DNA of 64,000 bases from Planctomycetota bacterium (GTDB taxonomy: Bacteria > Planctomycetota > Planctomycetia > Planctomycetales > Planctomycetaceae), in contig JAURQH010000010.1 in the NCBI GenBank assembly GCA_030836185.1, forward strand, positions 62,001 through 126,000, written 5' to 3'. Below the pieces are notes generated by a model that had not been told where the DNA came from, ran no database searches, and worked only from the letters and a program-made list of their open reading frames with translations. Of the stretch, positions 1 through 13,692 are shown piece after piece; within the stretch, counting starts at the first letter, position 1; every line of letters starts with the position of its first letter. A program made the position numbers and the translations under genes.

Positions 1-981
1 ATTACGATCAAACCTGACCGAAAACCTGACATTCTGACCGAACTTGATGCCACATTGATGGAACTTTTGGCATTTGGAGTGGGTGCAGGTTTGTCCCGCT
101 TAGAGCAGGAACGCAATGCGTTGGCGGCTCAAACACGCTTTGAAGAGTTCTTCACTCCGGGGCTTTCGAAGCGATTGATGAATGACTCCTCAATCTTGAG
201 AGGTCATGAAAGACCAGTTTCCATTTTGTTTTGTGATGTTCGAAAATTTAGTCAGTTTACTGAGCAGTTTGGGCATCGAATGACTGTCAGTTGGCTCAAC
301 GATCTACTCGGGGTCCTCTCAGAAGTTGTTTTGGATCGAGATGGAGTGCTTGTTGATTATTCCGGTGATCAGGTGATGGCAATGTGGGGAGCACCAGAAC
401 AACAGCCAGATCATGCCGTTCGTGCGTGCGAAGTCGCTTTGTCAATTCTCGAACAAATTCCCAAGATCAATCAACGTTGGAGTTCCTATTTGAATGGAAA
501 GCAAATTCAAGTCGGGTTGGGCATTAGTACCGGCCAGGCATTCGTGGGAAATATTGGTTCCCATCGAAAATTCAAATATGGAGCACTCGGTAATGTTGTG
601 AATCAGGCGAGCCGTATTCAAAACGAAACAAAAAAGTATCATTGTCCGATATTGATTTCGTCGGAAACCCTTGCAGAGCTTCCTGCCGAAATGGTCGAGC
701 ATCAGACGCGACGCATTGGAAAAGTAAAACTCCGCAATCTCAAGGATACCGCCACTCTCCATCAGCTTGTTCCAGTAAACACGGAGGGCTTTCTGCGAAG
801 AAAAACATTGATGGAGGAGTTTGAGGCGAAGCTAAGTCGTGACCACTTCGGTGAAGCGGTGGAAGTTATTCAAACCATTCTCGAAGAGTTTCCCGACGAT
901 GGGCCAGCACGCGCTTATCGAAAACAGCTCTCGGGACAAGATGCTTTCGATGGTGTAACCGATCCGGATAAGACGCCTTAA
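1..981 (+). CDS. Adenylate/guanylate cyclase, class III (5' end outside window)
   Basis: The reading frame is open to the first base of the window, so this is the C-terminal part of a longer protein. A class III nucleotide cyclase catalytic domain begins around the motif SILFCDVRKFSQF, which carries the first metal-binding Asp. It continues through VDYSGDQVMAMWGAP, the second metal Asp region, and GISTGQAFVGNIGS. Such domains make cAMP or cGMP from the nucleoside triphosphate; substrate choice cannot be decided here. The residues before the domain may be the end of a GAF or similar sensor module, as is common for this family in planctomycetes, but that is inference. A short C-terminal helical extension follows. 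It ends 31 bases before a convergent gene. Cyclic-nucleotide-binding domains occur in a redox protein 8 kb downstream. Confidence 0.88.
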   Translation: MTIKPDRKPDILTELDATLMELLAFGVGAGLSRLEQERNALAAQTRFEEFFTPGLSKRLMNDSSILRGHERPVSILFCDVRKFSQFTEQFGHRMTVSWLNDLLGVLSEVVLDRDGVLVDYSGDQVMAMWGAPEQQPDHAVRACEVALSILEQIPKINQRWSSYLNGKQIQVGLGISTGQAFVGNIGSHRKFKYGALGNVVNQASRIQNETKKYHCPILISSETLAELPAEMVEHQTRRIGKVKLRNLKDTATLHQLVPVNTEGFLRRKTLMEEFEAKLSRDHFGEAVEVIQTILEEFPDDGPARAYRKQLSGQDAFDGVTDPDKTP

Positions 982-1012
982 GAGTGAGCATCAATGACTA
1001 GAATTATGACTG

Positions 1013-2839
1013 CTAGAATTTCGATTGAAGCTCGAAGCGAACGCCTTGGCCGATGTCGGTTGATTCTCCTTTGGAAACAAACGAATCAATCACAAAGAAC
1101 CAATGTTGATCGAGTGCTTTTTGATAGCGTAAGCCAGTTGCGATCGCGGCGTTGTCGGCACCATTTGTGTCTTGCCTCCCGCCAATCTCAAAGACAACTT
1201 GTTCTTTGAGGTCATTGTAGAACATCTGATAGCCGAGACTCCCCCCCACAACACTATTCGCCTGGTTGCTCAACGGGGCTCCGTATCGTCCCAACCCAGC
1301 GGCTGAAAATAAGAGTCCGGTTTGTCCCAACGGACCTCCCCCCAATGGGCCTCTCGATGCGGAGGTGAATTGATCGATCCCCCAGAACGTGTTTAAAAAG
1401 ATCAGGTCATTGGTGTGGTGTGGTGTCCACGAGAATTGATGAAACAACAGTTCTCCTTGTGAGGCATAAACCGTTTCATCATCCGTCGGAATCGAAGCCA
1501 AAAGATGAAGTGATGAGTTGTAGGTGTTGTGGAATCCCGAAAGACGTTGAATCGCACTCAATCCAATGACCACCATGTCTCCAAGCCCATTTTCTGACCA
1601 GACATAGGCGACATCCGCGTTTACGGTGCTTTGACGAAAATTACTCTCGGTAAAGAAACCGGCAAGTTGAGAATCGTTATCGTGACGATTAGGCCCCATC
1701 ACATTATGGCGATTGATCTCGTTCCAGGCGTACACGAAGGTGCCGCGAAAATTCAGATTGCCGTTTCCATTGAGCGTGTTTCGTGTCACAGTGACAGCAT
1801 CAATACGGTCTTCGTTGAGGAGTAATCCCTGTTGGAAGGAAAGTGGTTGCCGTCCGATGGAAAAACCATAATCGAGTGCAGCCGTGTCAAACGGATCAAG
1901 GTTGGGGAAAATTTCACCAAAGTCACCTTCAAAGAACAGTGTTTGTGGTTCTGCGTTCCACCCGTCCAAAGCATCGCCATTGCGAATGTCGTATCCTGTA
2001 AAGCGGCGTGACGTCGAAGTTTCTTCATCGAGCGGTCTCATCCCAAACAAAATCCGCTCTGTTCCCGAAAGGTTTAATTGGGCAAATAGATCGAGACGAT
2101 TGGCCCATTCACCAACGGCTGGTCCTGTGCCGCCGTCAAAGTAATTTGCTCCCGTCCGATAAGTTCCAAACACCCACAATGCTGGTCTCCAGACAGCGCC
2201 TGTTGGCGTTACGACTCCCTGTTCTAGGAAACCTGCTCCCAAAAACTCTTCATTCAGTTCCAACAACAATGGGGGACGATCAGGAACCGATTGGAGGCCA
2301 ATGGCATGGTGGTCCAATTCGGTGTGCGGTTCGTCGTGTTCAGAGTGCAGTAAGACTTCCAAGAGATGAGAAAGTGGCTCGGCGGGTTTCCCAATCGCTT
2401 CAAGAAATGCTTCCAACAGATGATAACAGGCTGGCTCTTCTTCCTCAGGAACGCATGGATCGTAGGCAACGTGGCCAGCAAAGGGGCTCGGACAACCGGG
2501 CCCTGTGTGGTAGCTGAAAGGAATTAAGTTGGATTCAGGATAATCTGATGTTGATTGATGATTAGACGACTGTGGAAGAGGTGGTAGCTTTTTGTCGCTG
2601 AGTGCTTCTTCAGTCACCGGAGCAGGTGGGATCTCAATCGCTGTGGACGCTGTGGAAAACTGCGCAGGGGGAAATTGCGAGGTTTGAATCCCGGAAATAT
2701 CGACCGCCGGTATGCTTAACTCTTCTGCAGAAATTGTTGTCGTGCTTGAAATCATGTTCCAACTGACGAACCACAAGACCACCGCAGTCCTGCCGACTGC
2801 GGTGAGACGTGTCAAATTGTGTTGATTCGTAGCTCTCAT
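1013..2839 (-). CDS. Outer-membrane beta-barrel protein downstream of a multihaem cytochrome
   Basis: The protein is about 608 residues from the ATG at 2839. That start gives a hydrophobic signal peptide (AVVLWFVSWNM region) and avoids overlap with the upstream gene. Residues 30-190 are Pro/Ser/His-rich linker. The rest alternates polar and aromatic residues as in transmembrane beta-strands, with many Asn/Gly turns, and it ends in a terminal Phe (FELQSKF), the usual signal for outer-membrane barrel assembly. I do not recognise a precise family; it resembles large porins of the carbohydrate or alginate-export type. It starts 22 bases after the stop of the five-haem cytochrome gene on the same strand, so the two are probably one operon. 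Porin-cytochrome pairs can carry electrons across outer membranes, but that role is inference here. Confidence 0.75.
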   Translation of the reverse strand: MRATNQHNLTRLTAVGRTAVVLWFVSWNMISSTTTISAEELSIPAVDISGIQTSQFPPAQFSTASTAIEIPPAPVTEEALSDKKLPPLPQSSNHQSTSDYPESNLIPFSYHTGPGCPSPFAGHVAYDPCVPEEEEPACYHLLEAFLEAIGKPAEPLSHLLEVLLHSEHDEPHTELDHHAIGLQSVPDRPPLLLELNEEFLGAGFLEQGVVTPTGAVWRPALWVFGTYRTGANYFDGGTGPAVGEWANRLDLFAQLNLSGTERILFGMRPLDEETSTSRRFTGYDIRNGDALDGWNAEPQTLFFEGDFGEIFPNLDPFDTAALDYGFSIGRQPLSFQQGLLLNEDRIDAVTVTRNTLNGNGNLNFRGTFVYAWNEINRHNVMGPNRHDNDSQLAGFFTESNFRQSTVNADVAYVWSENGLGDMVVIGLSAIQRLSGFHNTYNSSLHLLASIPTDDETVYASQGELLFHQFSWTPHHTNDLIFLNTFWGIDQFTSASRGPLGGGPLGQTGLLFSAAGLGRYGAPLSNQANSVVGGSLGYQMFYNDLKEQVVFEIGGRQDTNGADNAAIATGLRYQKALDQHWFFVIDSFVSKGESTDIGQGVRFELQSKF

Positions 2840-2861
2840 GGGATAACGCTTGGAACTTCTG

Positions 2862-4796
2862 TTATTTAACTCGTACTTGAGAAATTCGCTCGTGAACAAC
2901 CAAATGGCCGTCAACGATGGCGCGGGCCAGTTGTTTGGCGCTCATGCCGTAATCAAAACCGACATCAGAAATTTCGTGAACCAGATTGACGGGAACCATG
3001 CCGGCAATGAGTTGCACGCGAACTGTGTAAGTTCCTGCACCGGTGATCTGCTTACCTTTGAGTTGATAACGAGCATCGATCCCGCCATCAACTTCAATGT
3101 TTTGTTTGTGTTTTCGAGCTCCGACTGGACGCCCCAAAACGGTGAAGGCTCGTGTCGCGGGGCGAGTGTAAGGCAGGGGATCAATCGAATACGGCACATT
3201 GAGAACTTGCTCTCTTTCTCCTCCACGTATGTTTCTGGTCACAAAACGCGATTGCAGCGAGACCAGATTACGGTCGAGTGGAATTTCACCGTTGTGAACG
3301 TAAAGGGAGTGACTGTCTCGAACGTCACCGTTCGGGTCGAGGTCACCCGATTGAAACACCATACGGCCTGTGGGATCCCACACATGAACTCTGAGGAACA
3401 CCATCCGCTCGGCATCGAAACCGGTCGGGACACCGTGTCCTGGAGTTCCATTACGGAGATCAATCCCAAACTCCAGCTCCTCGCAGTCGGAGCGATGAAA
3501 TTCGATTTGTCCGAGGTGGTAACCGGCTCTGAGAATTTGTAATCGGGCGATTGTTGCTTCGGTGAGTAATTGGTATTGATCGTTCAGTATTTGACGAGCT
3601 TTTAGGCGTTTCTGTTTGTTGTCCCATGGGGACGGGAAGTGCGTACTCTCTGTGACCGTTTTCTCGTATGCTTCCGTTCCCCAGCCTGCTGCATCATCGA
3701 AGCAAAGCCATTCTCGCATGGTGGCAAGCCCTGATTCTGTAATCGCTCCGCTAGTCGCTTCGTCAATCAGATCGACAGTCCCCTCTTCGCGAATCGCTTC
3801 CGGGTGGTGGGGAAACAAGCCTCTGTGAATCACCGGATAATCGGGGCCGATCATCATATGGTTGGTATGTTTTCGGGATGCCGTACTGACGTTTCCAACA
3901 ACAGCCGCTGGCCCAAATGTATAACCTTTGGCTTCTCCCGGGACGGCTCCCATGTGGCAGTCCTGACAGTTGTGCCCATGAATTTTAGCCGACGGTGATT
4001 GTTTGAATTCAGAAAACGCATCTTCGAGCCGAAACCCGTTTGGTGCAAAGACATCGTGGCAGGTACCGCAAAATCCCGAAGTGGTAATTTGAAAGAAACG
4101 ATGCGAGACTTTGTGAATATTTCGTCCGCGAACGTCGGCAGCCTTCTTGGTTTTTAGAACGCCGAACTTGTCAGGATTTGTCAAAACCTGGTTTAACACC
4201 TTGCTGCCGATGGGCCCATAGACGGCTTGCTGAACATCACCGGGAACCAACGCCTGGCGTCCAGCACCTTTTCCCCAAGCTTGATTGATTCGATGGCAAC
4301 TGATGCAGGTAACACCTTCACGCGAAGTGGGATGACGATTCAGATTGCTGGTGTTCAAGGGTTCGTTGAGTGCCATTCCGGTTGGTGTGTGGCAACGGAT
4401 GCAGAAATCTCCCAGTGTTCCTGAATTGAGTTTATTTAACTTGTTTGACATCGCATTGAAGACAGGACTTAACTGAGCATAGGCATGTGGAGAGACCGAC
4501 CACTCCCGATAATGCTGCGGGTGGCAGGTTGCACATTGTTTAGCTGATGGGAAGCAATTGTCTTCAAAACACTCTGCGTGAGCCTGATCGATGGCTTGTT
4601 GAAGAACCGTTTCCCGGTTGTGGTCAATCTTTTGATCAGCGAAGGAATGAATTTTAGAGACCGCAACAGTGCTTTGTTTTTCTTGCGCATTGACATCAGG
4701 AGGGCAACAAGACAGAGCGAATGCCCCCAGCACAAAAATGGCTCCCACCATCTTGTCCGCGTTCAGAACGAATTTTTGGCCTCTGGTCACCGTCAT
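2862..4796 (-). CDS. Secreted multihaem (five CXXCH) cytochrome c
   Basis: The 644-residue protein has an N-terminal hydrophobic signal segment (residues 17-31). Five c-type haem-binding motifs follow: CATCH near residue 88, CIRCH 132, CISCH 164, CGTCH 243 and CQDCH 277. Many spare histidines could be distal ligands, for example HPQHYREW and SPHAYAQ. This half resembles the cytochrome c554/multihaem family. Residues 400-640 contain no haem motif and are rich in beta-type sequence, perhaps a partner-binding or substrate domain. The protein should act in the periplasm or at the outer membrane. It is the first gene of the minus arm of the redox locus, is followed after 22 bases by a large beta-barrel protein, and is divergent from the reductase gene at 5232. 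The electron donor and acceptor are unknown. Confidence 0.85.
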   Translation of the reverse strand: MTVTRGQKFVLNADKMVGAIFVLGAFALSCCPPDVNAQEKQSTVAVSKIHSFADQKIDHNRETVLQQAIDQAHAECFEDNCFPSAKQCATCHPQHYREWSVSPHAYAQLSPVFNAMSNKLNKLNSGTLGDFCIRCHTPTGMALNEPLNTSNLNRHPTSREGVTCISCHRINQAWGKGAGRQALVPGDVQQAVYGPIGSKVLNQVLTNPDKFGVLKTKKAADVRGRNIHKVSHRFFQITTSGFCGTCHDVFAPNGFRLEDAFSEFKQSPSAKIHGHNCQDCHMGAVPGEAKGYTFGPAAVVGNVSTASRKHTNHMMIGPDYPVIHRGLFPHHPEAIREEGTVDLIDEATSGAITESGLATMREWLCFDDAAGWGTEAYEKTVTESTHFPSPWDNKQKRLKARQILNDQYQLLTEATIARLQILRAGYHLGQIEFHRSDCEELEFGIDLRNGTPGHGVPTGFDAERMVFLRVHVWDPTGRMVFQSGDLDPNGDVRDSHSLYVHNGEIPLDRNLVSLQSRFVTRNIRGGEREQVLNVPYSIDPLPYTRPATRAFTVLGRPVGARKHKQNIEVDGGIDARYQLKGKQITGAGTYTVRVQLIAGMVPVNLVHEISDVGFDYGMSAKQLARAIVDGHLVVHERISQVRVK

Positions 4797-4915
4797 CGCA
4801 TCCCTTACTAGACGGAATATGAACTATCAGCGTAGACCCGTATCCTTTGGGGCCTATTGATGTGATCGGTGTTCTGACGATGGGCTCTGTGAATGGATTT
4901 CCCGGTATTCAACGA

Positions 4916-4945
4916 TTGACAGAATACGTCCTACGAAATCATAAT
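4916..4945 (+). promoter_or_regulatory. Sigma70-like promoter for the redox operon
   Basis: A perfect TTGACA hexamer at 4916-4921 is followed after 18 bases by CATAAT at 4940-4945, five of six matches to TATAAT. It points towards the gene at 5232 and would give a leader of about 280 bases. The call rests on consensus match and position only. Confidence 0.45.
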
Positions 4946-5065
4946 ATTTCCTCTATTTTACCAAGTCGGCATCAATTTCATCGTGGCTGATAACGCCTTA
5001 CGTTAAAATAGACATCTGATCTGATTGATCTCGATTCCTGAAGCGTGAGCAACTGAATTGGAGAG

Positions 5066-5094
5066 TTTTCAGGCCTCAAACAATTGCCTGAAAA
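5066..5094. promoter_or_regulatory. Inverted repeat in the leader of the redox operon
   Basis: The arms TTTTCAGGC (5066-5074) and GCCTGAAAA (5086-5094) are perfect nine-base complements around an 11-base loop. The element lies about 120 bases downstream of the predicted transcription start and 138 bases before the first gene. It could be a regulator-binding dyad or an RNA hairpin. It lacks a T-run on the plus strand proper to a terminator. Confidence 0.4.
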
Positions 5095-5231
5095 TGAGTT
5101 ACGATTTGCGAGATTACTATTTCAAAGAGTAATCTGGTCAAGTGCTCCTTCCTTTTGCCTGTCCTGCCAATTAAAATTATGCCCAGTGGGCTGGTTCTCA
5201 GCAGAAGGTTCCTCATCTTCCTCCTAACTCC

Positions 5232-6515
5232 ATGTTTCCAATGCAAATCCTCGGCTGCATTCTGATTTCGCTGGTCGGATTGCGTTTGGTTCTTTCGTTG
5301 TGGGACTCGATTCGTACGCAGCAACACTCCGCAAATCAACGTCGTAAGTCGCTCGAACTTCTGGATGAGCGAATCGCATCGATTCGTGCATTGCGAAAAC
5401 AAACAGAGACTCAGCAACCACACTGGAATGGTTATCGGAAGTTTCGAGTGGATCGTAAAGTTCTTGAAGCTGATAATATCTGTTCGTTTTATCTGGTTCC
5501 CCATGATGGGAAGCCGTTACCCAGTTATCGCCCCGGACAGTTTTTGACATTTCGATTTCAATTACCTGATCAGAAGATGCAAAAATCAAAGCCGGTCGTT
5601 CGATGCTATTCGCTGTCAGATGCTCCCCGCCCGGATTATTATCGTGTGACAGTGAAGCGAGTTCCGTCTCCACCCGGTGTTGATGCTCCCGAAGGTCGTA
5701 TTTCCAACTATTTTCACGACCATGTGATCGAGGGGGATATTCTGGATGTACAGGCTCCGCGGGGTGATTTTTCTTTGGACCCCGCAGAAGAGAGTCCGGT
5801 TGTTTTGGTCGGGGGTGGGGTCGGAGTGACTCCGGTCTTGAGTATGGCGAACACGATCCTGGAAACCGACATTCAGCGAGATGTCTGGTTTTTTCTAGGA
5901 GTCCGTTGTGGACGAGAACATCCGATGAGGGAGCATCTCCAACAATTGGACGAGCGGTATGATCGTTTTCACCTCATGGTTTGTTATAGCTGTCCCGAAG
6001 AGTGCGATGAAAGTGAGAAAGATTTTCAGCGTGAAGGACATGTGAATCTGGCAGTCATCCGGGAAACGGTCAAAGTCTGCAATTTTGACTTTTATATCTG
6101 CGGGCCTCCTCCCATGATGGAATCATTAGTTCCAGATCTTAAAGACTGGGGAGTTCCTGAAGAGAAGATTCACACTGAAGCGTTTGGGCCTGCGACAGTC
6201 AATCGTGCGAAGAAGCCATCAACTCCTCAAAAAAATCAGACTGACGGTGAGAATCAGCCCGAAATTACGATACAATTTAGCCGATCAGAAACATGTGTCA
6301 CATGGGACCATAATCAGCAAAGTTTACTCGATTTTGCTCTCGATCAAGGGATTGAAATCGACTCCGGTTGTCGTGCAGGAAGTTGCGGATCGTGTGAAGT
6401 CGCCGTGAAACAGGGGGAAGTTGAATATACAGTTGAGCCAAGTGTGGAAGTCGAAAAGGGGTCGTGTCTGGCATGTATTTCCTGCCCGAAAACAAACTTG
6501 GTTATTGAAGCCTGA
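5232..6515 (+). CDS. Flavin/2Fe-2S NAD(P)H oxidoreductase (FNR fused to ferredoxin)
   Basis: The 427-residue protein has one N-terminal membrane helix (residues 5-22). A ferredoxin-reductase FAD domain follows, with the RxYSL-type motif RCYSLSDAP. The NAD(P)-binding domain has GGGVGVTPVLSM and CGPPPMM. A C-terminal plant-type 2Fe-2S domain carries ligands C380, C385, C388 and, by spacing, C418. The order FNR-NAD-2Fe-2S matches NqrF-like or phenol-hydroxylase-type reductases. It should pass electrons from NADH or NADPH through FAD to the cluster on the cytoplasmic face and then to a membrane partner. It is the first gene of the plus-arm redox operon, 36 bases before the first tetrahaem cytochrome, and is the likely electron entry point. 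No good Shine-Dalgarno sequence precedes the start; an ATG nine bases later is an alternative. Confidence 0.87.
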   Translation: MFPMQILGCILISLVGLRLVLSLWDSIRTQQHSANQRRKSLELLDERIASIRALRKQTETQQPHWNGYRKFRVDRKVLEADNICSFYLVPHDGKPLPSYRPGQFLTFRFQLPDQKMQKSKPVVRCYSLSDAPRPDYYRVTVKRVPSPPGVDAPEGRISNYFHDHVIEGDILDVQAPRGDFSLDPAEESPVVLVGGGVGVTPVLSMANTILETDIQRDVWFFLGVRCGREHPMREHLQQLDERYDRFHLMVCYSCPEECDESEKDFQREGHVNLAVIRETVKVCNFDFYICGPPPMMESLVPDLKDWGVPEEKIHTEAFGPATVNRAKKPSTPQKNQTDGENQPEITIQFSRSETCVTWDHNQQSLLDFALDQGIEIDSGCRAGSCGSCEVAVKQGEVEYTVEPSVEVEKGSCLACISCPKTNLVIEA

Positions 6516-6551
6516 GAAATTCATCATTTGAGAATATTGAGGGAGTGGATT

Positions 6552-7709
6552 ATGACATTTTCACAAAACCGTCTCGCAAAGAATAACGTCCTGTTGGTGG
6601 CCGGTTTACTGGCTCTGATCGGGATGGGCGTCTCATCGGCGATTTCCGGAAATATTGAACAGTCAACATCCTCCCGAGTTGTGAAGAATGATTCGGTGGC
6701 AACTTATCACACATCCGCGACGGCTGTTTTCAATGTATCCGAACAAATTGTCGGATCCGCATCCTGCAAAGAGTGTCATAAAGCCGAATATGCAGCCTGG
6801 ACGGCAACCGTCCACTCCAAGAACTTTGCAAGAATTGGCTCGCCTTCTGGGCAGAAGATTTCTGCCGCGTATGGCAATACCGAGGCTTGTCTCAAATGCC
6901 ATTCCACTCCACATACTCCGACCGCAAAATTTGAATCGGAGCAAGTCGGCGTCTCCTGCGAGTCGTGTCACTCGGCAGCCGGTGGGCCAGAAGGCTGGTT
7001 CAAGCTTCATTCTAATTACGGGGGTGAAGGTGTTAAACGAAACGATGAAACAGAAGCACATCGCAAAGAACGGCTTGCCGGTTGCGATACCGCAGGTATG
7101 ATACGTGCCAGCAATGTTTATGCTTTGGCGAAAAACTGCTATTCATGCCATGTGGTCGCTGATGAAAAATTGCTAGCCGCTGGCCACAAACCAGGACATA
7201 GCGACTTTGATCTCATTCCCTGGATGCAGGGTGAGGTTCGACATAACTTCCAAGTCGATCAAACAGTGAATGCCATTTCACCGTCCCTGTTAAAGGCTCG
7301 CGACGGTGTCACAACCGAACAACGTAAGCGTGTTTTATTGGTGACCAGTAGAATGGTTGAACTGGAAACCTTGCTACGAAATCTGGGTTCGATTAGCGAA
7401 GAGAATCTGGGGGAGAGCTACGCGGGCCGTCGTGGTTGGGCAGGTCGAGCGGAAGATATCTTTGAGTATCTTGACGAAGAAATCGGGGAGGCCATCGACA
7501 ATGAGCATGTTAAAGCTGTTGTTGAGGCGGTCAAAGAGATCGAACTTGGTCGCAAATTTGAAGATCAGGATGCCGCAATGAAGGCTGCCGATCAGCTCGC
7601 CAAAATTGTTCAAGAGTTTCTGGACTCAGCAGGCGAAGCAGATCTTGCTGGGCTCGATCCACTAATCGAGGAACTTGATAAACCGGTAGGGAAGCCGTAT
7701 TTGCCTTAA
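6552..7709 (+). CDS. Tetrahaem cytochrome c, c554-like (first paralogue)
   Basis: The start at 6552 is chosen because AGGGAG lies just upstream; an in-frame ATG at 6528 has weaker support. The 385-residue protein has an uncleaved or cleaved N-terminal hydrophobic segment (residues 12-31). Four haem motifs follow: CKECH (C72), CLKCH (C113), CESCH (C136) and CYSCH (C196). The spacing and the SAAGGPEGW motif after the third haem fit the cytochrome c554 family. Residues 250-385 are helical, acidic and haem-free. The protein should sit in the periplasm, probably anchored, and take electrons from the redox operon's membrane components. The next gene encodes a paralogue with the same four-haem plan, so the pair arose by duplication. 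Confidence 0.88.
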   Translation: MTFSQNRLAKNNVLLVAGLLALIGMGVSSAISGNIEQSTSSRVVKNDSVATYHTSATAVFNVSEQIVGSASCKECHKAEYAAWTATVHSKNFARIGSPSGQKISAAYGNTEACLKCHSTPHTPTAKFESEQVGVSCESCHSAAGGPEGWFKLHSNYGGEGVKRNDETEAHRKERLAGCDTAGMIRASNVYALAKNCYSCHVVADEKLLAAGHKPGHSDFDLIPWMQGEVRHNFQVDQTVNAISPSLLKARDGVTTEQRKRVLLVTSRMVELETLLRNLGSISEENLGESYAGRRGWAGRAEDIFEYLDEEIGEAIDNEHVKAVVEAVKEIELGRKFEDQDAAMKAADQLAKIVQEFLDSAGEADLAGLDPLIEELDKPVGKPYLP

Positions 7710-7760
7710 TTGCTGGCGTGTCACCCTGACGAAGGAATCCGAGATTCAGGAATGAAAGTT

Positions 7761-8951
7761 ATGCTCAAAAAGTGGAGGCCTCTTCGAAGCCATACCATCA
7801 ACTGGTTTCTCGGTTGCACGGTTGCTTTCTCCTGTTTGGTTGCATGGCTACCCGGAGAAGGAGGCGATGTTTCCGAGGTGACCACTCTCTCAGTCAACGC
7901 TAAAAAAACGAACATTAATCCAGATCGCAGCAAGTTCATGGGTGCTCGCGCGTGTCTTGATTGTCATCGTTCGGAATATGTGTCCTGGTTGGGAACCGAG
8001 CATTACAAGAATCCGATCAATCGCTTTGAAATCAGCGATGTCAGCGTCGCGAAAAAGTATCTCGATCAAGGAGGTACTCTTGACCGTTGCTACTCGTGTC
8101 ACTCTGCACCAGAAGAGAAAAACTTTGGGCGGCTTGCGGTGGAAAGCGGGACTTCTTGCGAATCGTGCCACGGTGCCGCCGGAGGCGAGTCTGGTTGGTT
8201 GAATCGGCATGCCGTTTATGGCCCCAATGTCACCACGCTGGCACAAGAGACACCAGAACATTATCGAAATCGAATCGATTACTGTGATCAGGCCGGTATG
8301 ATTCGTCCCAGTCATCAATACGAAGTCGCCAAAAATTGTTTTCGATGTCACATGATTGGCGATGCAACATTGGTCAGCGATGATGTCGGTCATCCTGTGA
8401 TTCATAAAAAGTTCAGTTTGATTCCCTACCTGAACAGTGATGTTCAGCACAACTTTCATTTGAATCAAAGATCCAATGCTGATGCTCCCACTCTCGACAC
8501 TCTTCGTCGGGGATTGTCATCATTGGAGCGCAAACGTGTCTACTTGGTGTTGGGGCAACTGGCGAAAATCGAAGTGGCATTACGGTATTTGGTCGATTTT
8601 CCGAATGACGAGGCTCTCGAAGAACGGTATGCAGGTAAATTGATCGATGCGTTTGAGGATGGGGCTGATGAAATTGACTACTATGTTGAGCTTTTACTCG
8701 AACCTGATGACGATGACATTAAACCTCTGGAAGAAGATGATGTCGAGTTGTTGTTGACAGCCTTTGAATTATTCGAAGAGTTTGATGATCTTGACAAACA
8801 AACTCGCGCAGCGGCTGCAGAAACGGCAAACAAGATTGCCGAAATTGCTGAAGGATTCCTGAAAGACTTTGGTGACGGAAAACGCTTGGCAGCATTAGAC
8901 ATTGTTTTTGAAGAACTTGACGATTCTCCCAGTAAACCGCTGCAACCATAA
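7761..8951 (+). CDS. Tetrahaem cytochrome c, c554-like (second paralogue)
   Basis: The ATG at 7761 has AGGA nine bases upstream; the ATG at 7752 is too close to it, so 7761 is preferred. The 396-residue product has a hydrophobic N-terminal segment (residues 13-31). Four CXXCH sites lie at C65, C110, C133 and C193. Its haem region aligns with the preceding gene: both have AGMIR, the CESCH-xAAGG-xxGW block and a QHNFH/RHNFQ motif before the helical tail. The tail is strongly acidic with runs of Asp/Glu around residues 310-350. The protein is periplasmic or membrane-anchored. The acidic tail may dock a basic partner, which is inference. It lies 51 bases after its paralogue and 27 before the ferredoxin-like gene, in one operon. 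Confidence 0.87.
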   Translation: MLKKWRPLRSHTINWFLGCTVAFSCLVAWLPGEGGDVSEVTTLSVNAKKTNINPDRSKFMGARACLDCHRSEYVSWLGTEHYKNPINRFEISDVSVAKKYLDQGGTLDRCYSCHSAPEEKNFGRLAVESGTSCESCHGAAGGESGWLNRHAVYGPNVTTLAQETPEHYRNRIDYCDQAGMIRPSHQYEVAKNCFRCHMIGDATLVSDDVGHPVIHKKFSLIPYLNSDVQHNFHLNQRSNADAPTLDTLRRGLSSLERKRVYLVLGQLAKIEVALRYLVDFPNDEALEERYAGKLIDAFEDGADEIDYYVELLLEPDDDDIKPLEEDDVELLLTAFELFEEFDDLDKQTRAAAAETANKIAEIAEGFLKDFGDGKRLAALDIVFEELDDSPSKPLQP

Positions 8952-8978
8952 TTTGAACAGCTCAGTCAGAAAAGGAAC

Positions 8979-10772
8979 ATGCGCGGGATGAGCAATGTCC
9001 AAATTAAACGGCCCGAACGCTGGTCAGTTCCCTTTTCGGAATCGATGACCGAGGAGGACGTTGAGTATGTCCTTCAGATGCCGTTGTTTGCGGAAGGGAT
9101 GATTGATCCTGAGCAATTTGGGAAGCGGATTTCATTGGCTGGGATATTGAAAAATGATGCCAGTCTTCTGAAGTGTCATCAAGGTGAAATCATCGTCAGA
9201 GAAGGTGAGTGGGGGAACTCGGCTTTCTTTCTACTCTCGGGCAGTGTCAGCGTCGCCGTACAACGCGGGAATGATTCGTTACCAGCAGAAATTCTGGGGC
9301 GATCCAATATCCGTCAAAAAAGCTTCATCGATATTTTGAAACAGCTCTGGAACGGTCATCGTCAGGTCGAATCTCGGGATCTTGAAAAATACTCAGCAGA
9401 GTCTCCGTCGTCCCGAACGACTAAGGAAGGGACGCGAGTTTATCTACAAGATATTTCGATTGCGTTGGATCTCGAAAAATCGGCAACCATCAACGCGGTC
9501 GATTTTTTTGGTGAGCAATCTGCCTTGGGGCGGATCGAACGGACGGCAACCGTAATCGCGGCGGGAGATTGTGAACTACTCGAAATCCGCTGGCAAGGGA
9601 TTCGAGATATGATGTCCAAAGCGCCCTGGTTGAAATTACAGATCGAATCGCGATTTCGCATGTACGGTTTACAGCGATTTTTGCAAGCATCCCCTTATTT
9701 CGAGCACTTGTTACCAACCGAGGATCGGACACCAGAGGATGTTGAGCGACGTAATGCTCTTTTTCAGAACGTCCTCGATGATGCCGATTTCCGTTCGTAC
9801 GGTTCCTACGATAAGGTCGAGAAGTTTACGAAACTTGTGGAATCGGGGACAGCATCCAATTTGGTGCATGAACCTCTCATCGCCAAAGAAGGAGATTACC
9901 TGGAAGGCGTCTATCTGATTCGCAGTGGTGTCGCGCGGGTTTCTCATCAAGCCGGTCACAAGCATCGTACGGTCAGTTACCTGACTCCGGGGCAGGCATT
10001 TGGCGTGAATGAAATGATTGAAGGGTGGAAAACAAGCCGACACGCCGATTTACGCTATTCGTTACGGGCTGTTGGTTATGTCAATGTGATCTTTATTCCT
10101 GCGCGAAACTTTGAACAAGCGGTCTTGAATGAGTTAATGGCGAGAGAACAATCTCATTCGACGTTCCCAGATCATCTGAGTTCAAAATCGAGTGATGAAA
10201 TCGGACAGATTGATTCTGGTTTGCTCGAATTTCTTGTCGAACGCCGATTCGTCAATGGCACGGCGACCATGGTGATCGATCTTGATCGCTGTACGCGGTG
10301 TGATGACTGCGTAAAAGCTTGTGCGACGACCCACGATAACAATCCACGTTTTTTAAGGCATGGACCCATCTATGACAAGTACATGGTTGCGAATGCCTGT
10401 ATGCACTGTGCAGACCCTGTTTGTATGATTCAATGTCCCACGGGGGCCATTCATCGGAGTATGCAAGGCGGTGAAGTGGTCATTAACGACACAACCTGCA
10501 TTGGATGCAGTGCGTGTGCAAACAATTGCCCTTACGATGCCATCCGTATGGTTCATATTCGTGATGAACAGGGAGATCTCATCTTTCCGACGGCGTCAGA
10601 GTCAGGCACATCGGCGCCCGTTTCGCTCACACCTCTTACCAAAGCAACGAAGTGTGACCTTTGTGCGGAACAGATCACCGGGCCAGCATGCCAACAGGCG
10701 TGTCCTCACGATGCGTTAGTGCGATTAAATTTGGGAACATCGGAAACAGCAGCAGAGTGGTTTAATCGATGA
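8979..10772 (+). CDS. Cyclic-nucleotide-binding domains fused to a four-cluster 4Fe-4S ferredoxin
   Basis: The 597-residue protein has no signal peptide. Two Crp-type cyclic-nucleotide-binding folds are recognisable. The first spans about residues 50-225, with EGEWGNSAFFLLSGSVSV and DFFGEQSALG, and is interrupted by a loop near 110-160. The second spans about 280-375, with KEGDYLEGVYLIRSGVARV and PGQAFGVNEMI. The C-terminal 160 residues are a DmsB/NrfC-like ferredoxin with four cysteine groups: CTRCDDC from C438, CMHC, CIGCSAC and CDLC, each with a following distal Cys-Pro or Cys. It should move electrons on the cytoplasmic side, perhaps gated by a cyclic nucleotide. The next gene, a cytochrome b-like membrane protein, overlaps its stop by four bases (ATGA), so the two are translationally coupled and probably form a complex. 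Confidence 0.86.
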   Translation: MRGMSNVQIKRPERWSVPFSESMTEEDVEYVLQMPLFAEGMIDPEQFGKRISLAGILKNDASLLKCHQGEIIVREGEWGNSAFFLLSGSVSVAVQRGNDSLPAEILGRSNIRQKSFIDILKQLWNGHRQVESRDLEKYSAESPSSRTTKEGTRVYLQDISIALDLEKSATINAVDFFGEQSALGRIERTATVIAAGDCELLEIRWQGIRDMMSKAPWLKLQIESRFRMYGLQRFLQASPYFEHLLPTEDRTPEDVERRNALFQNVLDDADFRSYGSYDKVEKFTKLVESGTASNLVHEPLIAKEGDYLEGVYLIRSGVARVSHQAGHKHRTVSYLTPGQAFGVNEMIEGWKTSRHADLRYSLRAVGYVNVIFIPARNFEQAVLNELMAREQSHSTFPDHLSSKSSDEIGQIDSGLLEFLVERRFVNGTATMVIDLDRCTRCDDCVKACATTHDNNPRFLRHGPIYDKYMVANACMHCADPVCMIQCPTGAIHRSMQGGEVVINDTTCIGCSACANNCPYDAIRMVHIRDEQGDLIFPTASESGTSAPVSLTPLTKATKCDLCAEQITGPACQQACPHDALVRLNLGTSETAAEWFNR

Positions 10773-11596
10773 GAGCTCTCACCCGACGCCGTACAATCAA
10801 TGTCTGTTTGACTCTCTTAGTGGCTTTTGTACTGATCGGTGCCGCTTGGATCGTTAAAAACACGTTGGTCGAAACTCACTTTCTGACAGGCTGGTTTTTT
10901 TTTGTCACGATCATTTTTCTTGCGGCATACAATCTTCGTAAAGCGTTCCCTTTTCTCCCACTCGGAACTTCAGCACAGTGGTTGCAAGTCCATATTTATG
11001 CAGGCTTGTTATCGTTTGTGTTGTTTCTGATTCACATTGATTATGAATTGCCGAACGGTTTTCTGGAATCGTTTTTGGCATCGGTTTATCTGGTGGTTTT
11101 TGGGAGTGGTCTTGTCGGGTTATACATGAGTCGGACATTCCCCAAACGGCTTACAGATCTCGGTGAAGAAGTCATCTTCGAGCAGATACCCGTTGTTCGA
11201 AATAACATTCAAACGGATGTTGAAGACGCTATCCTTGAATGTACGGAGGAGATCCACAATTCTGAGATTCCCATGTTTTATCGCAATGAAATTTACCCGT
11301 TTATCATGCGTAGGCCAGACCGATGGTCGCATTTCGTTTACGGATACAGTCGGTATTGGAGACCTCTGCAGAAAAAATTGTCTGATGCGAAACGTCTGTT
11401 CGATGAGGAAGAACTGAATGCGTTGGCGAAGGTCGAGATTCGATTGTCTCGGAAACACCAACTCGATACCCAAGAGACTCTGCAATTTGCTTTGAAAGTT
11501 TGGTTGTTCATTCACATCCCGGCAACCTATTCTTTACTTACCTTCACTGCGTTACATGTGGTTCTTGTTCAAGTGTGGTCGGGAGGGGCGTTATGA
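10769..11596 (+). CDS. Dihaem cytochrome b-like membrane protein
   Basis: The 275-residue protein has about five hydrophobic segments: residues 11-29, 39-55, 74-91, 102-119 and 243-270. Two helices each contain a pair of histidines 14 residues apart, H75/H89 and H249/H263. That is the spacing used by dihaem b-type cytochromes, where each haem takes one histidine from each helix. The soluble loop (120-240) is charged and may bind the preceding ferredoxin. I cannot place it in a named family; ferric-reductase-like or NrfD/DsrM-like proteins are the nearest ideas. It overlaps its neighbours by four bases on both sides (ATGA junctions), which argues for coupled synthesis and a shared complex. The proposed role is to pass electrons from cytoplasmic clusters to periplasmic haems. 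Confidence 0.72.
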   Translation: MRALTRRRTINVCLTLLVAFVLIGAAWIVKNTLVETHFLTGWFFFVTIIFLAAYNLRKAFPFLPLGTSAQWLQVHIYAGLLSFVLFLIHIDYELPNGFLESFLASVYLVVFGSGLVGLYMSRTFPKRLTDLGEEVIFEQIPVVRNNIQTDVEDAILECTEEIHNSEIPMFYRNEIYPFIMRRPDRWSHFVYGYSRYWRPLQKKLSDAKRLFDEEELNALAKVEIRLSRKHQLDTQETLQFALKVWLFIHIPATYSLLTFTALHVVLVQVWSGGAL

Positions 11597-13692
11597 GCAA
11601 TACAGACTCCCCCTCTGGATTCGACACCAACAGTTATCAACTCCCACAACAGGATTGGGTCTGCGGTCATCTGGCTGATGGTAGCCCTTGTTCAATCGGT
11701 CCCAGTACAAAGGGGAGTTGTCTCGCAGAAAATATCTGCCACCCTCAATTCGACGGGAAGAAGTGGCATTGCACTCGTCCTAATGCTTGGGGAGGGCAAT
11801 GTCACGACGGCCCAATTCCTGATGCGGCTTGTCCCGAGGAAAAAGCGATATGTCCCCATCAACCAGCGGCATGCCAACCCGCTCGCAGCTTGAGAAACCG
11901 CCGGAGAATAGTAACGGGATTGGTTTTCGCGGCTTCTTTGGGGATTTGCCTCCTCATTTTAGGTGGCAGTTCAGGCAGCTCGTCATCGACGCTCTTCCAG
12001 ACAACGAAAATCATTTCTCCGGGGCCACTTTCTTCACCGCATTCAGTGATTCAGGAAGGGTGCAAGGCGTGTCATCCTTCAAGCCATCTGACTCCGGTTT
12101 CGATGGTGAGTGAGGCATGGGACTTTCATCACAAAAAACATCAAAGTGAACTTTGCTTAAATTGCCATCAAGATTTTGGTGAACATGCAATGAACGCGCA
12201 TAGTGCCAACCCGGAGCAGTTAACGACATTGAGAAAACAATCTACGGGAAAAACTCATTTGACGAGTGACCAGATCTGGGTACGAGCGCTGATTGGAGAT
12301 CAAATTTCTAATGCCGAAGAACTGAACTGTGCGACTTGTCATCAGGAGCACCAGGGAGCCAATTTCGATTTAACACACCTGACCAACAAACAGTGTCAAA
12401 GTTGCCACGAGAATACCTTTCATAGCTTTAGTGAGGGTCACCCTGAATTCGAGACAGTACGGGTTCGTATTCGCTTCGATCATAGCAGTCATTTCGAACA
12501 GCACTACAAAAATTACCCCTTCTTGATGCCCGGCGGTATCCCGAAACAAAACTGTAACGAGTGTCATCAACTTTCTTCAGACGGTGCTACGTTTCAACTC
12601 GCAGGATTTGAAGCGATGTGTGCCTCGTGCCATGAGTCACAAATTCTCGACTTCCAGATGCCGACGGCATTACGACTGGATCAGTTTGAGTTTTTGAAGT
12701 CCTCTGAAACATCAGATTCTTCGACCGTGAAGTCTTTGGAGTTGCCGCCATTCATGGAGTTGATGTTGCGTGCCGATGAAAAGATTGCAGTTGCCATTGA
12801 TACGCTTCAGGAATCAGTGGTCTCAGGTGATGAACTACAGTCCAAAAATATTGCTTTGATTGCAGAAGCAACTCGCAGCTTACTGATCGAACTGAAGCAG
12901 CAAGGTGCGGAAGTAGTGGAGCAGAGATTGAACCGATTCACTGAAGGTCCGAAAGTCGCCAAGCTGGTGGAGTCTTTGGTCGAAGCCTTGGATCGGTCTC
13001 AGTTTTTTGAACTGCTCTCTGCAAGTCATTTCGGCGAGAATTTGAAATCTGAAGGTTCCGACGACTCAGTCAAAGACCGTGAATTCACTCTCAGTTCCTG
13101 GACAATGCTGAACGATCAATCCTCTGTGGAGTATCGGCCTCAACAACATGCCGATCCACTTATCAAAGCTTGGCTGGATTTAATGGCGAATCAAGCTAGT
13201 GCCTCTTACGAAGAGGTTGAATCACCCCATCATAATCGTTTTGACGACTTTTTTCGGGCGGCTGTTTCTCCAGAAGCAGCCGGTCGTTGTACCAAGTGCC
13301 ATACCGTTGATCGATTGTTAGATGGTTCCCTCAGAATCAATTGGGGAATCCTGCCCGCAGATCAATTTCAGCGGCAGTTTTCAGAGTTCGTGCATCGTCC
13401 GCATCTCACGTTAATGCAAGATCGTTCTGCCCCTGAAGCTTCACAAGCTGTTGAAGAAGAAGTCTGCCTGAAGTGTCACCAGCCGGAGGAGCCCAAACCG
13501 TTCTTTAATCGTTCAGCGTTTGTCTTGTCCGATGGTATGCCTCATACCGACTTTCATCATGCGAACTCTACGGGGTACTTACCGATTCAAAAACGTGATT
13601 GCGTGCAATGCCATCAACCAAAAATGGCTGGCGACAATTGTCTTCAGTGTCACAATTATCATGTGCATGAAAACTCAGTCTTGCGAAGATGA
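11593..13692 (+). CDS. Membrane-anchored decahaem cytochrome c with cysteine-rich cytoplasmic head
   Basis: The start at 11593 has GGAGG upstream and overlaps the previous stop by four bases. The 699-residue protein has three parts. Residues 20-95 hold nine cysteines in GxPC/GGxC/PDAxC patterns and no CXXCH, so they may bind metal or FeS. A single membrane helix spans about 106-124. A large periplasmic region then carries ten CXXCH motifs, the first at C157: CKACH, CLNCH, CATCH, CQSCH, CNECH, CASCH, CTKCH, CLKCH, CVQCH and CLQCH. Groups of six and four haems are separated by a helical haem-free stretch. The haem part resembles cytochrome c3/c7-type nanowire proteins. It ends the redox operon and overlaps the convergent methyltransferase gene by 18 bases. 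Confidence 0.85.
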   Translation: MSNTDSPSGFDTNSYQLPQQDWVCGHLADGSPCSIGPSTKGSCLAENICHPQFDGKKWHCTRPNAWGGQCHDGPIPDAACPEEKAICPHQPAACQPARSLRNRRRIVTGLVFAASLGICLLILGGSSGSSSSTLFQTTKIISPGPLSSPHSVIQEGCKACHPSSHLTPVSMVSEAWDFHHKKHQSELCLNCHQDFGEHAMNAHSANPEQLTTLRKQSTGKTHLTSDQIWVRALIGDQISNAEELNCATCHQEHQGANFDLTHLTNKQCQSCHENTFHSFSEGHPEFETVRVRIRFDHSSHFEQHYKNYPFLMPGGIPKQNCNECHQLSSDGATFQLAGFEAMCASCHESQILDFQMPTALRLDQFEFLKSSETSDSSTVKSLELPPFMELMLRADEKIAVAIDTLQESVVSGDELQSKNIALIAEATRSLLIELKQQGAEVVEQRLNRFTEGPKVAKLVESLVEALDRSQFFELLSASHFGENLKSEGSDDSVKDREFTLSSWTMLNDQSSVEYRPQQHADPLIKAWLDLMANQASASYEEVESPHHNRFDDFFRAAVSPEAAGRCTKCHTVDRLLDGSLRINWGILPADQFQRQFSEFVHRPHLTLMQDRSAPEASQAVEEEVCLKCHQPEEPKPFFNRSAFVLSDGMPHTDFHHANSTGYLPIQKRDCVQCHQPKMAGDNCLQCHNYHVHENSVLRR

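Follow-up and report, generated by a model that had tools for sequence, protein, structure and literature searches.

What kind of electron-transfer system is encoded where a reductase, several multihaem cytochromes, a ferredoxin carrying cyclic-nucleotide-binding (cNMP) domains, a dihaem-b-like membrane protein and a beta-barrel stand side by side? The question is raised by positions 1 to 13,692 of a 64,000-nucleotide stretch of DNA from a Planctomycetota bacterium (GenBank assembly GCA_030836185.1, contig JAURQH010000010.1, positions 62,001 to 126,000, forward strand), which is referred to here as the window. A preliminary description of this DNA listed 23 CXXCH sites, a FAD/2Fe-2S reductase, a cNMP four-cluster ferredoxin, a dihaem-b-like protein and a barrel, and this gene set is borne out by the open reading frames, by motif counts (4 + 4 + 10 + 5 CXXCH), by Pfam, and by AlphaFold2 (AF2) models. 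The locus is a PCC4 Subgroup II porin–cytochrome cluster, an assignment made by published text features and not by sequence homology to named PCC4 proteins. It is real and widely conserved, and probably functional as an electron-transfer locus, and we consider it fairly probable that it forms a conduit in which inner-membrane modules are joined through periplasmic cytochromes to the barrel, with the flux set by a cyclic nucleotide.

Identity and distribution of the cluster

PCC4 was proposed in 2017, from few genomes, as a candidate extracellular-electron-transfer cluster, and Planctomycetes were already listed among its hosts (He et al. 2017, PMC5566968). The published definition has three kinds of protein: a porin; periplasmic multihaem cytochromes, whose haem numbers are 4, 5, and 10; and, in the inner membrane, a protein of five helices with the motif WX3HX13H on the third and the fifth helix and SGXXG on the fourth. 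Subgroup II is further marked by an Fe-S (pfam13247) gene placed upstream of the gene for the five-helix protein and by a redox gene placed upstream of the tetrahaem gene (PMC5566968). Each of these features is found in the window. A barrel gene (1013–2839, minus strand; AF2 and Foldseek) adjoins the pentahaem gene, and all three cytochrome sizes (4, 5, and 10 haem sites) are present. The five-helix dihaem-b-like inner-membrane protein (10769–11596, plus strand; AF2 pLDDT 84) carries W71/H75/H89, W245/H249/H263 and the SGxxG motif at 113–117 (S113-G114-x-x-G117), with the helices seen in the model; W71, H75, H89, G114, G117, W245, H249, and H263 are invariant in 18 homologues. A pfam13247 gene (8979–10772) lies upstream of it, and a redox gene (5232–6515) lies upstream of the tetrahaem gene, the latter being compared by its presence, without the Subgroup II domain order. 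The statement in the preliminary description that no named complex has this exact set is therefore wrong, and the match to an already characterised complex, which it took as a result that would tell against its proposal, is half there: the cluster has a name, PCC4 Subgroup II, but is experimentally uncharacterised. The locus differs from Subgroup II as published in having two tetrahaem genes instead of one and a divergent pentahaem–barrel arm.

The b-like protein was searched for in 294 planctomycete genomes, and the DNA surrounding its matches was mapped. Matches were obtained in 69 genomes, around 27 of them strong and full-length, and the block genes lie together in many planctomycete genomes with a match; related genomes thus mostly keep the genes together, and the separation that the preliminary description had named as refuting its proposal is mostly not seen. 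Full collinearity (pentahaem–barrel–reductase–tetrahaem–ferredoxin–b protein–decahaem) is seen at loci L078, L080, L081, and L099, and also in Ferruginivarius sediminum (L131) and Verrucomicrobia (L169 and L181). A wider scan of named genomes, with the barrel as query, extends the block to Nitrospirota, Verrucomicrobiota, Acidobacteriota, Deltaproteobacteria, SAR324, Gammaproteobacteria, and Alphaproteobacteria (the isolate F. sediminum); at the acidobacterial and deltaproteobacterial loci, an octahaem protein replaces the tetrahaem protein. The pentahaem and barrel genes are adjacent at nearly every locus, and the two arms are adjacent at many loci in several phyla, in differing relative orientation. 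PCC4 clusters are widespread, in at least six phyla, and their cofactor plan is invariant. The block is, on gene content, an accessory trait, since the search with the b-like protein drew a blank in G257, a genome from the same genus.

Cofactor-bearing proteins of the two arms

The FAD/NAD(P)H oxidoreductase (5232–6515, plus strand) has a hydrophobic N-terminal anchor and a C-terminal 2Fe-2S domain; NAD_binding_1 (3.7e-21), Fer2 (7e-12), and FAD_binding_6 (1.5e-4) all lie above the Pfam cut-offs, and flavohaemoprotein/PaaE-type reductase matches lie below theirs. In the ferredoxin (8979–10772, plus strand), two cNMP domains (cNMP_binding, PF00027, 1.3e-25) are fused to a four-[4Fe-4S]-cluster part that matches Fer4 and other 4Fe-4S dicluster families (PF13247, 6.3e-11). 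Its 16 cluster cysteines are kept across 60 homologues, three of the positions being kept in 59 with one gap.

Gimesia-type loci (L062, L063, L069, L070, L109, L111, and L112) lack the reductase gene, and a class III cyclase occupies the place where it would be expected, either between the arms or next to the inner arm; no close full-length reductase copy was found elsewhere in the searched genomes with such loci. At Nitrospira-type loci (L132, L133, L134, and L136), a protein of 155–179 residues that matches the 2Fe-2S part of the reductase replaces both the reductase and the cNMP-ferredoxin. Because the one type is without a reductase and the other has only the small 2Fe-2S protein, the predicted cytosolic entry is variable between loci.

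The five-helix protein has no Pfam family match above cut-off. Like the membrane domain of ferric reductases and NADPH oxidases (pfam01794) with its FAD/NAD reductase, it has five helices, carries two HX13H pairs, located on helices 3 and 5, and has a FAD/NAD(P)H module as partner; here, however, electrons would be expected to pass onward to c haems, and Fe-S proteins are interposed. Direct ferric-reductase homology was rejected, there being no pfam01794 match and no PDB fold match at E <= 0.001. More distant sets of cNMP-ferredoxin, five-helix b protein, and decahaem cytochrome, with no reductase or barrel, were observed in other planctomycetes (L098, 7668–11459; L100, 6412–13779; L101, 7835–18337), and these are, judged by their composition, a wider superfamily of inner-membrane redox modules.

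The haem sites lie in a pentahaem cytochrome with a signal-peptide-like N terminus (2862–4796, minus strand; 5 CXXCH; Cytochrome_C554, 6e-8), in tetrahaem cytochrome 1 of the c554 family (6528–7709, plus strand; 4 CXXCH; PF13435, 1e-10), in its paralogue tetrahaem cytochrome 2 (7710–8951, plus strand, likely start around 7752; 4 CXXCH; PF13435, 6e-10), and in a decahaem cytochrome with a single membrane anchor (11500–13692, plus strand, likely start 11593; 10 CXXCH) that weakly matches HmcA. The counts of 5, 4, and 10 haems and all motif cysteines and histidines are kept in 86 pentahaem, 67 tetrahaem, and 46 decahaem homologues, respectively. A further invariant histidine is available as candidate second ligand for 4/4 haems of the tetrahaem proteins and 10/10 of the decahaem protein, all of which can, on these alignments, be bis-His; in the pentahaem protein, the conserved candidate histidines at least equal the haems in number. 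Because such candidate second ligands are available, the tetra-, penta-, and decahaem cytochromes look more like wires than enzymes. Hmc/Tmc-type complexes of sulfate reducers likewise combine a cytoplasm-facing four-cluster ferredoxin, a membrane subunit, and a multihaem cytochrome; the locus, however, is without an NrfD-type subunit and has instead the dihaem-b-like protein, together with cNMP domains and an outer-membrane barrel.

Among solved structures, PDB 5ze8, 'cytochrome c552', is nearest in sequence to the pentahaem protein (E 5e-10, residues 83–289, plus a weak second stretch); identity is low, and the haem regions align but most of the C-terminal part does not. An identity as nitrite reductase was rejected, as the CXXCK site is absent and the conserved histidines suffice for full ligation. 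Likewise rejected was a recent duplication of the two tetrahaem genes in this genome, since the two do not group together in the tree and stand on long branches. At L078, L081, L131, and L160, the pentahaem cytochrome bears a long acidic DDLLGDD-type repeat ahead of its haem domain, and at L090–L097, in several planctomycete genomes, a hexahaem relative of it stands with a distant barrel relative, the inner-membrane arm being absent.

The decahaem protein also carries a repeat-like Cys-rich domain (11653–11877, plus strand; WVCGxxxxGxPCxxGP...C...CxP) without a Pfam match. Because it lies ahead of the membrane anchor, it must be cytosolic, provided that the haems are periplasmic; it is a possible further cofactor site. 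With its repeated C..GP...G.C pattern, the domain is kept N-terminal to the anchor in most homologues, is reduced in the L078/L080/L081 group, and is absent from octahaem-type loci. Domain and reductase occur together at 33 loci and are both missing from 10, with the reductase alone at 1 and the domain alone at 7. As these 7 are Gimesia-type loci without a reductase, the idea that the domain marks the reductase was rejected; the two do not correlate strictly, and common ancestry may account for the association.

Cyclic-nucleotide binding and the linked cyclase

The phosphate-binding cassette of the first cNMP domain, FGEQSALGRIERTAT (9507–9551, plus strand), is of the CRP/PKA type, with Gly-Glu kept in 60/60 homologues and the arginine in 53/60; the cassette of the second domain is degenerate. 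Beside the block, the window opens with the C-terminal part of a class III nucleotidyl cyclase (1–981, plus strand; PF00211, 3.7e-22; weak GAF_2), a gene absent from the preliminary description. The whole gene, the complete open reading frame of which was taken from L102, encodes 617 residues with a GAF-like domain and starts around 870 bases ahead of the window; its PF00211 catalytic domain scores 79.3 bits against a cut-off of 21.9, as befits a class III enzyme.

Genomes in this family hold only 1–3 class III cyclases each. Such a cyclase adjoins the block in 5 of 13 block-bearing planctomycete genera, where 0.24 would be expected (exact P 1.4e-6, a value that treats genera as independent, which they are not fully), and another stands beside one SAR324 locus (L174). 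In the tree, the linked cyclases are spread over more than one clade, at least three label changes being forced, and a single dedicated cyclase lineage was rejected on this ground; their companion domains are GAF-like in the window, FHA at L072, and 7TMR-DISM at the SAR324 locus. Because the linked cyclases are not of one clade, differ in companion domains, and are linked above expectation, we interpret the pattern as a source of cyclic nucleotide having been linked repeatedly to an electron carrier that has cyclic-nucleotide-binding domains. A more specific proposal, to which somewhat less than even confidence is given, is that of a trans-envelope conduit with an allosterically gated inner-membrane entry: the nucleotide made by the co-located cyclase would bind the cNMP domain fused to the ferredoxin, and the signal would control flux, not transcription.

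The adjoining cyclase sets the locus apart from Subgroup II as published, as do the cyclic-nucleotide domains of the Fe-S protein, which go unmentioned in the main text of He et al. 2017; the phrase "cyclic nucleotide" is absent from that text (PMC5566968). A literature search found no description of cyclic-nucleotide control of such a conduit, and the hint of cyclic-nucleotide switching has apparently not been described before. If the cNMP domain does gate the ferredoxin, a respiratory electron wire would be under direct second-messenger control. The linked cyclase provides a point of genetic access in planctomycetes that can be cultivated, Gimesia-type strains for example.

The barrel, the proposed electron route and the gene arrangement

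The gene at 1013–2914 (minus strand; likely start 2839) has no Pfam family match and models as an outer-membrane-type barrel. The single-chain AF2 model has around 18 strands in residues 220–608, where pLDDT is mostly 70–94, and a C-terminal phenylalanine, with low confidence in the first 200 residues; Foldseek matches it to MOMP, OccK/OprD, and AlgE (E 3e-11 to 1e-8). In MtrAB, the 26-strand MtrB barrel encloses a decahaem cytochrome (PMC7198977). The locus has in common with MtrAB, MtoAB, and PioAB an outer-membrane barrel, a periplasmic multihaem cytochrome, and a possible outer-membrane electron route; however, the partner is pentahaem and not decahaem, and the OprD/AlgE-like model has around 18 strands and not 26, corresponding by standard barrel geometry to a backbone radius of around 17 Å against 23.5 Å. 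Because the model is narrower and its fold matches are solute or polymer pores, an MtrAB-like multihaem wire threaded through the barrel is doubtful; the barrel may instead give a small electron donor or acceptor access to the pentahaem protein. Of the earlier suggestion that electrons perhaps cross the outer membrane, the outer-membrane-type barrel has held up, but a crossing is not established with this strand number. The model also calls into question the assumption that every porin–cytochrome pair is an MtrAB-like wire.

In the favoured reading, the anchored reductase, the four-cluster ferredoxin, and the dihaem b protein would exchange electrons at the inner membrane between NAD(P)H and the anchored decahaem cytochrome, with quinone possibly a further partner. 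The tetrahaem cytochromes would then carry electrons through the periplasm to the pentahaem protein, working beside the barrel, so that the route would likely lead from NAD(P)H by way of FAD, 2Fe-2S, four 4Fe-4S clusters, and two b haems to the decahaem, tetrahaem, and pentahaem proteins, in that order. The first cNMP domain would sense a nucleotide, here probably from the adjacent class III cyclase, and set the flux. The two-armed locus of the preliminary description, and with it the proposed order from NAD(P)H through FeS and b haems to c haems, is supported by conserved collinearity and invariant cofactor ligands; the order itself we infer, together with the direction of flow, the formation of a complex, and the gating.

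Several observations weigh against this conduit. No significant fold match for the b protein was obtained in the PDB (E <= 0.001); Gimesia-type loci keep the cyclase but no reductase, and NAD(P)H input is thus not universal; Nitrospira-type loci hold no cNMP-ferredoxin; seven ferredoxin homologues, all from octahaem-type loci, have glutamine for the cassette arginine; and the cyclase is unlinked in 8 of 13 planctomycete genera. PCC4 is mentioned in one 2026 metagenome paper (PMC13264449), and a literature search found no biochemistry for any PCC4 and no paper testing its function.

Electrons might also run inwards, as modelled by He et al. 2017, with Fe(II), Mn(II), or another extracellular donor being oxidised, the b protein passing electrons to quinone, and the reductase serving as a side branch or for reverse flow to NAD(P)+. 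Among the named PCC4 hosts are bacteria of drinking-water filters and iron-oxidising marine Zetaproteobacteria, and the histidine spacing of the b protein is like that of quinone-active cytochromes b (PMC5566968); the reductase is, moreover, absent from Gimesia-type loci. Most loci, however, do have the reductase and the ferredoxin, and a search of 20 genomes for the RuBisCO large subunit gave nothing in 15, this one among them, which makes lithoautotrophic iron oxidation by the Calvin–Benson–Bassham cycle unlikely here, though it does not settle the direction; the inward route is judged rather unlikely. Somewhat more weight, still short of a leading place, is given to a periplasmic redox system with a diffusion pore, in which the barrel would pass a small substrate or metal chelate, the pentahaem protein would react in the periplasm, and no haem-borne crossing would occur. 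The narrow model, its pore matches, the contrast with 26-strand MtrB around MtrA (PMC7198977), and the lack of an encoded extracellular cytochrome all favour such a pore, whereas the near-constant adjacency of pentahaem and barrel genes suits a complex, and the low-confidence N-terminal 200 residues and single-chain predictions limit what the model can say.

The regulatory part of the favoured conduit has its own rival, a plausible minority view, in which the cNMP domains have a structural role or bind some other ligand and the cyclase next door has nothing to do with the conduit. The degenerate second cassette, the unusual look of the cyclase's purine-specifying residues, and the 8 of 13 genera without linkage would fit this; Gly-Glu and arginine are nonetheless kept across phyla in the first domain, and the linkage, far above expectation, involves several cyclase lineages and architectures. 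That the arms are two unrelated operons brought together by chance is very improbable indeed: the pentahaem–barrel pair does occur alone (L084 and L118), as does the hexahaem type (L090–L097), and the inner arm occurs without the pair nearby (L063, L064, and L065), but the synteny of the arms in several phyla contradicts it.

Within the window, the divergent arms are separated by an intergenic stretch (4797–5231) that, by the gene layout, likely holds promoters. In the inner-membrane arm, the ATG at 10769 overlaps the stop of the ferredoxin gene and the decahaem ATG at 11593 overlaps that of the b-protein gene, ATGA-type overlaps that suggest translational coupling.

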